Shown: positions 35,392 to 50,858 of the stretch, in pieces
Position numbering within the stretch: the first letter of the stretch is position 1
Layout of the letters: every line of letters starts with the position of its first letter
Position numbers and translations under genes: made by a program
Origin: Temperatibacter marinus
GTDB lineage: Bacteria > Pseudomonadota > Alphaproteobacteria > Sphingomonadales > Kordiimonadaceae
Assembly (NCBI RefSeq): GCF_031598375.1
Contig: NZ_CP123872.1
Coordinates: 1,841,001 to 1,905,000 of the forward strand
Reading direction: 5' to 3'
Length of the DNA: 64,000 nucleotides
Notes under the pieces: generated by a model
What the model was told of the DNA's origin: nothing
Seen by the model: only the letters and a program-made list of their open reading frames with translations
Database searches by the model: none

Positions 35392-35428
35392 AAAAAAAAG
35401 GCCCGCGATACTCAAAACATCGGGCCTT
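35392..35428 (-). terminator. Minus-strand intrinsic terminator (end of a probable small RNA)
   Basis: Read on the minus strand: AAGGCCCG (35421-35428), a 15-base loop, CGGGCCTT (35398-35405), then a run of eight Ts. No minus-strand protein gene feeds into it, which implies a noncoding transcript coming from the right. Confidence 0.7.
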
Positions 35429-35449
35429 AACTTTTAGGGGGAAATTAGG

Positions 35450-35499
35450 GGTCGGTTCCGAGGGGGAAGTGGGGGAGGGAGGGGGAGATCCTCGGAACC
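35450..35499. repeat. Long perfect inverted repeat with a purine/pyrimidine-tract loop
   Basis: Arms of 14 bases at 35450-35463 and 35486-35499. The plus-strand loop is a G-tract array (runs of five, five, three and five Gs separated by A-containing spacers) that could form a G-quadruplex; the minus strand gives the C-rich loop described for the small RNA. Confidence 0.85.
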
Positions 35500-35569
35500 G
35501 ACCTTTTGACGTTCACCGGGAAAGTTCCCGTCAAATTCTAATTAGTTGCGCTCTGTTGCGCTTGAGAAC

Positions 35570-35598
35570 AATATAGGCATATTGCTGCACTGCGAGAA
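35570..35598 (-). promoter_or_regulatory. Possible promoter of the minus-strand small RNA
   Basis: On the minus strand TATATT (35570-35575) is a good -10 box; a weak TTCTCG (35593-35598) lies 17 bases upstream. A start near 35563 would give an RNA of about 170 bases. Confidence 0.3.
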
Positions 35599-35617: not shown

Positions 35618-35640
35618 AGCTATGCGTTGGATGCATAGCT
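35618..35640. repeat. Inverted repeat, 8-bp arms
   Basis: AGCTATGC, seven bases, GCATAGCT. It lies 6 bases from the large palindrome at 35647-35666, between the small RNA region and the lipoprotein gene. No T-run follows. Function unknown. Confidence 0.6.
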
Positions 35641-35646
35641 GTTAAC

Positions 35647-35666
35647 TTTTGACAGCGCTGTCAAAA
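35647..35666. promoter_or_regulatory. 20-bp perfect palindrome with central GCGC
   Basis: TTTTGACAGC mirrored exactly by GCTGTCAAAA. The core TGACAGCGCTGTCA has the even, central-CG symmetry typical of LacI-family operators. Both strands contain a TTGACA -35 box within it; to the right, TACAAT sits 19 bases after the plus-strand TTGACA. No LacI-family gene is in the window. The rest of 35667-35887 is AT-rich leader sequence of the lipoprotein gene, with nothing else I can name. Confidence 0.6.
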
Positions 35667-35887
35667 AAATTAATACAATATATATTACAATGACTTATAT
35701 CATAAAATGTGCAAATATTCTCAATTTCACACTAAAAGAAGGTTAATAAAATAAGCCCCTATACTATCGCAGAGCTAGGGACAAAGAGAAAGCCAACTAA
35801 AAAAAGTATAAATTTTCTTTTCAAAAACAATGTTGCGAGAGGGCCCTTAATAACAGTAGTCTCTTATGAATTTCAGGGGAGACTATA

Positions 35888-37537
35888 ATGCGTTTATTTG
35901 TTTTTATTCTAATCTTCATCTCTTTGACGGCATGTGACCAAAAAGAAGAACCTAATAATATATGGTCTACAGATGACCTACGTTTGGCGGTGGATCGAAA
36001 AGATACTAAAGCAGATGTTGTTTACTACCATCTAAACAATCCTGAGGACAAAGAGGCATTATTTTTGATTGGGCGCATGGGCGATGAAGCCACTTGCCAA
36101 CAAATGGCCTCTCATTTGAAGAGCGAGAAAGCTGAGATTCGGGAAGCAGTTCTTTACGGTTTGACCAACTGCTGGACTGAAAGTGCTCGCCTTGCTCTCA
36201 GAGAATTTCCTTTAGAGAAGGCGTCCCCTAGTGAACGTCGATATTGGGCACAGGCTTTTGGTTATCATGCAAAAGAGGAAGATGTACCTCTTCTGATAGC
36301 TGCCTTTAAGAAACAGCCAGAAACTGAACTGCTTTACGGATTGATGCAGGCGATTGTCTATAGTCGGAAAAATGTTGGTGAGTTAGCTGAGATGCCTTGG
36401 GAAAGTGTCTTTGCCCTCATAGAATCTGATCAATCCATGGCTTTGTCCCTGTATTTCGTCAACCGTCTTCAGGCTATTGAAACAATTATCCCTTATAAAT
36501 CAGCGAAAGATATCTATACCGCAGCGCAATCCCGTAAAAATAATGATGCTCAAATTCAAGCGTTAAGGCTGCTTTCTAATTATGAGGAAAGTCGCCCAAT
36601 GTTTACCCAGATGTTGAAGGGGATTGATAGTTGCGAAAAAGGTGAAGAAACATCCCTAGATAGTCTCTACATGAGGCGTCGTTTAGCTGTTCTGCAATTC
36701 TCACCCAAATGGGAAGATGAGGCTTGGCTTGAAGCTATTAAAGATGTCCGTGCCGGTGCTTGTGATCAAGCAGCTTATCTGGCCGTAGTCTATAGTTTAA
36801 GCCGAGGCATAGAATTTGACTATGCTGCATACATCAACCATTCAGCGCCTAGTATCGCCTTCGAAGCTTACGCTAAAATTTACGATAAAACACCGCAAGC
36901 CGTCCAGGCCCAGCTTATTAAAATGCTAACAGGACCGCATTACTATAAAGCTTGGAAAGCACTAAACATTCTAGCACGTGAGGAAGCTGGGAGAGCTGTT
37001 GTTATGGACCATGTCAATGAGATAGAGATTGATGCTATTAAAACTGATGCAGAATATCGTTTAGCCATAGCAGAAATTCCAAATGATACCTCTCAGCGGC
37101 CCTCTCCCCGTATAATACAGCCTGAAGATGAGATCGTTGCACGTCTTGAAACTTCACAAGGGATTATTAAAATAAAGCTTCATTCTGAGAATGTTGCGGC
37201 GGTACATTTTAGAGATTTGATAAAAGCTGGCGGAATGGACGGCATGGTATGGCACCGAATTATCCCAAATTTTGTTGCTCAGGCAGGTCAGTCTGAAAGT
37301 TCAATTGCAAATGATTGGCACGCAATTCGCGACGAATGGGGCGGGCAGCATACGGTTGGATCTGTGGGCTTAGCCACTGCTGGCCGTGATACAGGCAGTG
37401 CACAGTTTTTCATTAATGTGAACTATAATCAGCACCTAGATGGTCGATATACAGTTTTTGGTGTTGTGGTTGAAGGGCTAGAAAACGCTTTCGCCATGAT
37501 GGAAGGGGATATGATTGTGAAAGCAATCATAGAATAA
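35888..37537 (+). CDS. Lipoprotein with helical-repeat region and C-terminal cyclophilin peptidyl-prolyl isomerase
   Basis: A 549-residue protein. The lipobox is SLTAC, Cys16, so it should be lipid-anchored facing the periplasm. Residues about 25-400 are helical and HEAT-like (for example EIREAVLYGLTNCWTESARLALREF). The last 140 residues are a cyclophilin domain: WHRIIPNFVAQAGQ with the catalytic Arg, GSAQFFINVNYNQHLDGRYTVFG near the end. It would speed proline isomerisation of exported proteins while the repeats bind a partner. This resembles larger Bacteroidetes-type PPIase lipoproteins more than the small PpiA. No partner gene is adjacent. Confidence 0.8.
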   Translation: MRLFVFILIFISLTACDQKEEPNNIWSTDDLRLAVDRKDTKADVVYYHLNNPEDKEALFLIGRMGDEATCQQMASHLKSEKAEIREAVLYGLTNCWTESARLALREFPLEKASPSERRYWAQAFGYHAKEEDVPLLIAAFKKQPETELLYGLMQAIVYSRKNVGELAEMPWESVFALIESDQSMALSLYFVNRLQAIETIIPYKSAKDIYTAAQSRKNNDAQIQALRLLSNYEESRPMFTQMLKGIDSCEKGEETSLDSLYMRRRLAVLQFSPKWEDEAWLEAIKDVRAGACDQAAYLAVVYSLSRGIEFDYAAYINHSAPSIAFEAYAKIYDKTPQAVQAQLIKMLTGPHYYKAWKALNILAREEAGRAVVMDHVNEIEIDAIKTDAEYRLAIAEIPNDTSQRPSPRIIQPEDEIVARLETSQGIIKIKLHSENVAAVHFRDLIKAGGMDGMVWHRIIPNFVAQAGQSESSIANDWHAIRDEWGGQHTVGSVGLATAGRDTGSAQFFINVNYNQHLDGRYTVFGVVVEGLENAFAMMEGDMIVKAIIE

Positions 37538-37566: not shown

Positions 37567-38469
37567 CTAGAGAATATTTTGTTCAGCTCGAATTTGTTGA
37601 ATGAGATAGTCTCTAAAGACGGCTAACCGTTTTGATCCTCGCAGCTCTGGAGGATAGCAGAAGTAACTCGGGAAAGTGAGGTCCTCTGTTTGGTCTTCTA
37701 GTACTCTTACAAGGTTTTTTCTGTTATGAGTTAGATAATCAGGTAAAGCAGCAATTCCTACACCCTGTTCTACAGCATTTAGGATGCCATAGAGATTGTT
37801 GATTTGCATTCTTGGGGCTCTAGGCTTGCCCGTTTTGCCCAGTGTTAGAGTATAATTTAGACGGTTTAAGGGTTCCCTGACAGTGTTTCCAAAGGCAATA
37901 ATATCGTGATGATCAATCTCTTCTGGGGTCGACGGCATGCCATTTCTATCAAGATATTCAGGAGAGGCATAGATATGACTGTGGAAACTTGCAAGCGGTC
38001 TCTGGATGAGATCAGTCTGTTGGATTTCATGTAATCGGATAGCCACATCAGCTTCCCCAGCTGAAAGATCTAAATCTCTATCATCTAGAATAAGCTGAAT
38101 ATCAATTTCAGGATATTGTTCGAGAAAGCCTCTGATGTGATTGGTTAACCAGACTGCGCCAAATGTTACCATGGTCGTTACCCGCAGTGTTCCAAAAGGA
38201 CGCCCTTTTGATTCTGCAAGATCACGCTGGGTTTCGTCAATTTTTTGTGTCATTTCTTGGGTGGTTTGAAAAAGCTGTTGTCCCTCTTGAGTGAGGACTA
38301 AGCCGCGTGCGTGACGCGTAAAGAGAGAAACATTCATAGCCTCTTCTAAAGCTTTAATCTGTCTAGAAATAGCAGATTGGCTGCTATTAAGGAGAGATCC
38401 TGCAGTCGTAAAACTGCCAGCTTCTGCGACAGTTTGAAAAATTCTAAGTTTATCCCAATCTAAAGGCAT
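37567..38469 (-). CDS. LysR-family transcriptional regulator
   Basis: A 300-residue regulator. The winged helix-turn-helix is at about 17-36 (GSFTTAGSLLNSSQSAISRQIKALEE), followed by the LysR effector domain from about 90. It opens MPLDWDKLRIFQTVAEAGSF, a start common in alphaproteobacterial LysR proteins. The divergent neighbour is a 102-residue protein 131 bases away, a possible target together with its own gene; the effector is unknown. It ends 29 bases from the convergent lipoprotein gene. Confidence 0.87.
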   Translation of the reverse strand: MPLDWDKLRIFQTVAEAGSFTTAGSLLNSSQSAISRQIKALEEAMNVSLFTRHARGLVLTQEGQQLFQTTQEMTQKIDETQRDLAESKGRPFGTLRVTTMVTFGAVWLTNHIRGFLEQYPEIDIQLILDDRDLDLSAGEADVAIRLHEIQQTDLIQRPLASFHSHIYASPEYLDRNGMPSTPEEIDHHDIIAFGNTVREPLNRLNYTLTLGKTGKPRAPRMQINNLYGILNAVEQGVGIAALPDYLTHNRKNLVRVLEDQTEDLTFPSYFCYPPELRGSKRLAVFRDYLIQQIRAEQNIL

Positions 38470-43995: not shown

Positions 43996-44670
43996 GTGAA
44001 GGATGACATGAACAAGTTGGTGATCTTTGATTGTGACGGCACCCTCGTTGACAGTCAGCATATGATTGTCTCAACCATGCATGATACATTCAGTGAGCTT
44101 AAAGTTTCTCGTGTCAGTGATCTGGCTGTGCGACGCATTATTGGGCTCTCTCTCGAAGAAGCTATCAGTGAATTGCAGCCTAGTTTTTCTCAGCAAGATG
44201 TGAAGGATGCGACCGCCCTCTATAAAAACCGCTTCTATGAAAAACGCCAAGCTGAGGGCTTTAAACCAGATCCCCTCTTTCCAGGGTGTAGAGAAGCCAT
44301 GGAAGAGCTCAGCAACCGTGGGTATTTGCTTGCTGTAGCAACAGGAAATAGCCATCGCGGTATGCAACGAGTTATCGAACAACACGCTCTCAACGACTTT
44401 TTTGTCAGTGTTCAGACGGCAGACTTTCATCCCAGTAAGCCCCACCCTTCAATGATTAATACTGCCCTGAGTGATGCAGGATCACATAAAGATTTAGCGG
44501 TGATGATCGGGGATACTAAATTTGATACAATAATGGCAAGCAATGCTGGCTCGCAGTCTATAGGTGTTGCTTGGGGGTATCACGGCGGACAGGAATTGCT
44601 GGACACTGGAGCTAAACATCTTATTGAAGAGTATCATGAGCTGCCAGACCTAGTCGATAGGATGCTATAA
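43996..44670 (+). CDS. HAD-family phosphatase, phosphoglycolate phosphatase-like
   Basis: A 224-residue HAD hydrolase. Motif I is FDCDGTLVD (Asp12 and Asp14), motif II VATGNSHRG, motif III K in HPSKPHPSM and motif IV MIGDTKFD. A helical cap sits at about 20-85. Two starts are possible: GTG at 43996 with AAGGAG 8 bases upstream, or ATG at 44008 with AAGGA 4 bases upstream. I keep the GTG. The natural substrate is unknown; phosphoglycolate is the nearest guess. The next gene begins directly after its stop. Confidence 0.82.
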   Translation: MKDDMNKLVIFDCDGTLVDSQHMIVSTMHDTFSELKVSRVSDLAVRRIIGLSLEEAISELQPSFSQQDVKDATALYKNRFYEKRQAEGFKPDPLFPGCREAMEELSNRGYLLAVATGNSHRGMQRVIEQHALNDFFVSVQTADFHPSKPHPSMINTALSDAGSHKDLAVMIGDTKFDTIMASNAGSQSIGVAWGYHGGQELLDTGAKHLIEEYHELPDLVDRML

Positions 44671-50462: not shown

Positions 50463-50840
50463 GCAGATGGCTGGATGACTGCCGCCGTGTTAAAGCGGGG
50501 AAGGAAAGTCCGGGCTCCACACAGACAGGGTGCTGGTTAATGGCCAGCGAGGGCGACCTTAGGGAAAGTGCCACAGAAAGGATACCGCCGGTATACGTAT
50601 CGGTAAGGCTGAAAGGGTGCGGTAAGAGCGCACCGGGCTTCTGGCAACAGCGGCCGCATGGTAAACCCCACCCGGAGCAAAGCCAATAGGAACGACGCAG
50701 ACTTTGATCTGCTGGTGAGTTTGTGCACTATAGTTCGGGTGGCTGCTTGAGCGTGCTGGTAACAGTCCGCCTAGAGGAATGGTCATCGAAGGTTGGGATT
50801 GGCCCGACTGGAACAGAACCCGGCTTATAGGCCATCTGCC
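50463..50840 (+). ncRNA. rnpB: RNase P RNA (type A)
   Basis: GCAGATGGC at 50463-50471 pairs with GCCATCTGC at 50831-50839 to form P1. Conserved blocks are present: GAGGAAAGTCCGGGCTCCAC-like (GGGAAGGAAAGTCCGGGCTC), GGGTGCTGG, the CAGAAAGGAT region, GGTAAACCCCACC, and the 3' AGAACCCGGCTTA. The RNA trims 5' leaders of tRNA precursors with protein RnpA. A CTTTTTCTTTTTTA run follows P1, ending transcription. Open frames on the minus strand across it are chance. Confidence 0.95.
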
Positions 50841-50858
50841 CTTTTTCTTTTTTATACT

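Follow-up and report, generated by a model that had tools for sequence, protein, structure and literature searches.

Background

In S. meliloti the small RNAs AbcR1 and AbcR2 are located between SMc01226 and lsrB, and LsrB activates abcR1 through the sequence GCAT-N3-TG-N3-T at -61 to -49, with CTATAT, the alphaproteobacterial sigma-70 -10 element, as the -10 box (PMC8844928). Both RNAs pair with mRNAs through two anti-Shine-Dalgarno (anti-SD) motifs, one in a loop (aSD1) and one in a linker (aSD2), both of which have been shown to act (PMC8844928). VtlR of Brucella and Agrobacterium activates small proteins as well as abcR (PMC12595884, PMC7486931). LsrB has been described as unique to the Rhizobiales (PMC11975290), and a single substitution of C273 in A. 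tumefaciens LsrB leads to an lsrB-like phenotype, unlike the other substitutions reported (PMC11975290).

The locus considered here lies in the genome of Temperatibacter marinus, a member of the Kordiimonadaceae, within a stretch of 64,000 nucleotides that was analysed as a whole (the window). From its conserved RNA structure, operator, promoter spacing and gene linkage, all of which were computed, we infer that an LsrB-type protein binds at the operator, that the RNA is produced and that it represses mRNAs, while the class of its targets can be named only tentatively. In our opinion the locus probably encodes a trans-acting anti-SD sRNA of the Kordiimonadaceae that is activated by an LsrB-type regulator and, like AbcR1, represses mRNAs at G-rich ribosome binding sites (RBSs).

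Structure of the predicted small RNA gene

The gene would be transcribed from the minus strand, convergent with kbl, and comprises the following parts.

35392..35563, minus strand: small RNA gene of about 172 nt, its start inferred from the -10 box and its end from the terminator
35505..35535, minus strand: 5' hairpin TTTGACG...CGTCAAA, which folds and is kept in relatives as GACGG..CCGTC
35450..35503, minus strand: 14-bp stem with a 26-nt loop that carries a C-rich anti-SD tract (aSD1)
35436..35444, minus strand: second anti-SD-like motif, UUUCCCCCU (aSD2), in the linker 5' of the terminator
35392..35428, minus strand: intrinsic terminator, AAGGCCCG...CGGGCCTT with exactly eight T at 35399-35392

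The start is placed near 35563 because the CTATAT -10 box sits at 35576-35571. Both the perfect 14-bp inverted repeat (arms 35450-35463 and 35490-35503) and the terminator with its eight Ts are as described in an earlier, sequence-only reading of this DNA; the loop, which had been given as 22 bases, in fact measures 26 nt (35464-35489, AUCUCCCCCUCCCUCCCCCACUUCCC) and does hold the C-rich tract CCCCCTCCCTCCCCC claimed for it. It had also been remarked that no minus-strand protein gene leads to the terminator, and indeed none runs directly into the sRNA within the window: the nearest, the LysR gene at 37567-38469, is 2 kb upstream, beyond a plus-strand lipoprotein gene. The RNA is predicted to fold with a z-score of -4.43, a stability reached by none of 200 shuffled sequences. 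The earlier reading had missed the LysR-type operator, the constant spacing of the promoter, the second anti-SD motif (aSD2) and the LsrB-type neighbour gene, as well as an sRNA found class-wide at the same position.

Conservation in the Kordiimonadaceae

At the DNA level, matches to the element were found in 14 of the 30 family genomes, own genome counted. The covariance model R1, which was built from 14 sequences, detects homologues in 26 of the 30. In a set consisting of the window and 12 sequences outside the model, 11 of the 14 stem pairs have changed on both sides, with 34 double-change cells as compared to 10.1 in shuffles, and 97.7% of the cells are paired, a value that falls to 55% or less once the partners are slid. 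All 26 homologues together likewise give double changes at 11 of 14 pairs and 96% pairing, in an alignment that was fitted to the structure. Covariation of the stem had been named beforehand as the observation that would decide against a small RNA if it failed to appear in relatives, and it did appear. The presence of homologues in 26 of the 30 family genomes, together with stem covariation, rules out chance as the origin of the element. As originally proposed, it is best read as a small RNA that displays a C-rich anti-SD tract in its loop. By this comparative evidence the element is a real, previously undescribed sRNA family of the Kordiimonadaceae.

A C-rich motif in the linker, usually CCUCCC or UCCCC, is listed for 25 of the 26 homologues; at one locus (L054) the first listed motif, CTTCCTCC, is upstream of that locus's own CCTCCC. 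Applied to LsrB loci from across the class, R1 finds nothing under an E value of 0.24, and therefore the big C-loop stem looks family-specific. Elsewhere outside the family the model gave three marginal matches within the order (in f5) and one within the class (in G380), which on reading of their sequences were not accepted as homologues and at which no operator was noticed. A scan for the C-loop pattern across all named genomes produced, besides matches in Kordiimonas and in Alphaproteobacteria MAGs, matches in other phyla that look like chance.

Relationship to known small RNAs

Is the window RNA then a low-scoring member of a known Rfam family, be it ar14, ar15/AbcR, suhB/mmgR or SorX? We consider this unlikely. 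The Infernal/Rfam check that had been recommended returned nothing above threshold, membership being rejected for ar14, ar15, suhB, SorX and SorY alike. There are sub-threshold matches, of 22.9 bits to suhB (RF00519) on the 3' half of the RNA, of 20.0 bits to alpha-r14 (RF02344) and of about 22 bits to ar15 (RF02345) on the sRNA of two genomes, G011 and G025. However, these scores are far under the respective gathering scores of 41, 58.8 and 40 bits; ar15 exceeds its cut-off in none of the 30 family genomes, and its sub-cut-off matches occur in 8 of 14 control genomes as well. The SorX model (RF02784, gathering score 46.6) gives no match to the window RNA. In the same window, at 50463-50843 on the plus strand, RNase P RNA class A (RF00010) is recognised with 294.8 bits.

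Single traits are nonetheless shared with several of these RNAs. NfeR1 (alpha-r14) displays a CCUCC-type anti-SD motif in a hairpin loop, as does the window RNA, and we know of no lsrB linkage for NfeR1. The mmgR/suhB RNA has the same succession of a CUCCC-type linker and a terminator, but its model is without the large C-loop stem. A 3' module of the type found in SorX of Rhodobacter occurs downstream of LsrB-type genes class-wide; SorX represses the transporter mRNA potA.

The likeness to AbcR1 and AbcR2 (alpha-r15) extends to the whole locus. Like these, the window RNA adjoins an lsrB-type gene; the AbcR1 arrangement of an operator near -61 with a GCAT core and a CTATAT -10 box recurs, with the same palindrome and spacing, in 25 to 26 of the 26 homologues; and a hairpin loop with aSD1 is again followed by a linker with aSD2 and then by the terminator. 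The window RNA differs in that it is longer, has the 14-bp stem in addition and carries a much longer C tract in its 26-nt loop. It is also present in single copy, unlike AbcR1/AbcR2. Hfq binding and the repression of ABC transporter mRNAs are further traits of AbcR, and nothing points to ABC transporter targets of the window RNA.

Since the loop exceeds the AbcR anti-SD motifs in length as well as in C purity, and since many RBSs would be weakly complementary to it so that its specificity is in doubt, it might be argued that this is a real sRNA whose loop serves as a binding site for a protein, or as a decoy or sponge that titrates some other RNA, instead of pairing with mRNA RBSs. We hold this to be improbable, as two separate C-rich single-stranded motifs have been kept and their layout is that of the mRNA-pairing AbcR1/2 (PMC8844928). 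We favour an RNA of about 172 nt that would display two C-rich anti-SD stretches, one in the loop on the covarying stem and one in the linker ahead of the terminator, and that would most likely block translation of selected mRNAs by pairing to their G-rich ribosome binding sites. Such an exaggerated natural anti-SD loop may serve as a model for how C-rich sRNAs achieve specificity.

The LsrB-type regulator and its predicted operator

Upstream of the sRNA gene lie the elements to which we ascribe its control, together with one gene given for context.

35571..35576, minus strand: -10 box CTATAT, 49 nt past the GCAT of the operator
35618..35640, minus strand: LysR-type operator AGCTATGCATCCAACGCATAGCT, matching AGCYATGC-N7-GCATRGCT at 16/16 positions, with GCAT at about -62
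35888..37537, plus strand: lipoprotein gene with a C-terminal cyclophilin domain (PF00160), divergent, between the sRNA and the LysR gene (context only)
37567..38469, minus strand: LysR regulator gene of LsrB/VtlR type, which we propose as the sRNA's activator

The best solved relative of the LysR protein is A. tumefaciens LsrB (chain 9HH1; 46% identity over 295 residues), with an E value of 1.4e-82 as opposed to 5e-33 for the next match in the PDB. Of the redox cysteines C144, C236, C244 and C273 of A. tumefaciens LsrB, C273 alone (in FCYP) is a cysteine in the aligned window protein. An orthologue is present in 28 of the 30 family genomes, and in all 25 genomes that have both on one contig the sRNA shares the strand of the LsrB-type gene and is found 0.2-4.5 kb downstream of it; the 26th genome (G008) is fragmented, with the two on separate contigs. 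As in the window, one gene often stands between them, and genes weakly similar to the lipoprotein gene adjoin the sRNA in 8 of the 13 relatives' loci searched. In the Rhizobiales lsrB forms an operon with trxB. Near the window gene no trxB was recognised by eye when the ORFs of 120 aa or more were read as far as position 44000; a DegP-like ORF follows.

The operator of the window is the sole copy without mismatch in its own genome. Its pattern is matched at 14 to 16 of 16 positions in all 26 homologues and agrees with the T-N11-A form of LysR-type operators, and in 25 of the 26 a TATA-type -10 box starts 48-49 nt past the GCAT. The flank of the window operator, GCAT-N3-TA-N3-T, is one position off the published LsrB consensus GCAT-N3-TG-N3-T, which is matched in full by just 7 of the 26 homologues. 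Between this operator and the lipoprotein gene, at 35642-35670, there is a further perfect palindrome, TGACAGCGCTGTCA, of LacI type by its look; it is not conserved at the same place in relatives.

The linkage and the operator suggest that the sRNA is switched on by the adjacent LsrB-type regulator, or so it appears from sequence comparison. In our model the LsrB/VtlR-type protein would bind the palindrome, centred near -66, and in its bound state would activate a sigma-70 promoter that has only a poor -35 of its own. One may object that the RNA has no independent gene and instead derives from the LysR gene, as a processing product of its 3' UTR or as an extension of that UTR. In several relatives the LysR stop is indeed followed, on the same strand, by the sRNA core after only 180-340 nt, and there is the precedent of Rhodobacter SorX, whose source is the 3' UTR of a regulator gene (PMC9438474), one of OmpR type. 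However, a plus-strand gene separates the LysR gene from the sRNA in the window, and in 25 of the 26 homologues the operator and the -10 box stand at rigid spacing directly ahead of the RNA, which makes a 3'-UTR origin very unlikely. A reading of the conserved feature as DNA structure and not RNA, with a G-quadruplex on the plus strand and an i-motif opposite it, is hardly credible. The canonical pattern, which the plus-strand GGGGGAAGTGGGGGAGGGAGGGGG does fit, occurs in only 13 of the 26 homologues, whereas the stem that flanks it shows covariation and both the promoter and the terminator have been kept.

Candidate targets and possible further members of the regulon

But which mRNAs would a small RNA activated by the LsrB-type regulator repress? 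TonB-dependent receptor mRNAs with GGAGGGA sites would be the leading candidates. In the own genome the start regions of 30 TonB-receptor genes surpass 165 others in their pairing with the loop (p 0.001). GGAGGGA, to which UCCCUCC of the loop is exactly complementary, is found in 6 of these 30 but in none of the 165; K. gwangyangensis (G010) shows a similar trend for TonB-receptor start regions. The test is a rough one, with a simple rule used to set the start codons. After generic SD strength had been regressed out the signal was gone (p 0.66 and 0.10), and generic SD strength explains the pairing advantage. With this confounding, the comparison is suggestive only of TonB-receptor mRNAs as targets.

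Further operator-like sites are present, above a reversed-pattern control, in most family genomes. In the own genome a second operator, with 2 mismatches, at G000:C1:99749-99771 (L080 1186-1377, minus strand) precedes an ORF of 63 aa. At nine loci of relatives the operator likewise stands ahead of small-protein ORFs, and with the own genome included the -10 box is spaced at 48-50 in 10 of 10. One of the operator-driven small proteins was tested for a Pfam family and has none; those of the relatives mostly have in common a C-terminal RPxxLGG-like motif.

LsrB-type loci across the Alphaproteobacteria

With E <= 1e-60 as the limit, a gene of LsrB type is present in 237 of 387 genomes of the class. 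Among the first 29 loci that were read, 21 have behind this gene a module resembling an sRNA, ACGTCTCCCAGACGTGAAGCCTCCCTGTT or a close variant, together with a terminator. R2, a model of this class-wide 3' module, located it just downstream of the gene at 29 of 40 fresh loci with E values of 1.2e-3 or lower, which for 27 of these loci were below 1e-9. The operator, matched at 13 or more of 16 positions, lies within 700 nt downstream of 38 of 69 LsrB-type genes as compared to 0.35 expected, in a set that includes the loci where it was first noticed. Rfam places 1 of 17 class-wide loci above the SorX cut-off and gives no match at gathering threshold for 20 other loci with the class-wide RNA, and a literature search with the 3' motif as a literal sequence showed none containing it among the papers listed. 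In most of the LsrB-type loci read, the gene is directly followed by this operator or by an sRNA that lacks annotation, and such loci amount to a ready, testable set of regulator, operator and sRNA for many genomes.

In the Kordiimonadaceae R2 reaches only 7-14 bits, and 7.2 bits, a very weak match, on the window RNA itself, yet 11 of its 11 matches coincide with the sRNA's 3' end and are on the right strand. Common descent of the window RNA with the class-wide RNA is likely, mainly by position and operator. The window RNA would then be the Kordiimonadaceae version of an LsrB-linked sRNA found across the alphaproteobacteria and may act like the rhizobial AbcR1.

A wider reading, which we put at about an even chance, is that an LsrB-type regulator, an adjacent anti-SD sRNA and a shared operator form an ancient alphaproteobacterial module rather than a speciality of the Rhizobiales, with the sRNA and a small-protein gene as its small core regulon, and that the Kordiimonadaceae gained the long C-tract loop, which would have retargeted the sRNA, perhaps to TonB-dependent receptors.

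In another family of the order, a hairpin with the loop CUUCUCCCCCCUCCCCCACAG lies behind a gene (L075, G144:C1:1228822-1228893) and is possibly an independent anti-SD hairpin. Finally, some of the class-wide LsrB loci (L162, L167, L173, L176 and L223, as well as L160 and L166) show two close GCCTCCCTG-type motifs or at least two tandem sRNA copies, an arrangement that may be compared to AbcR1/AbcR2.
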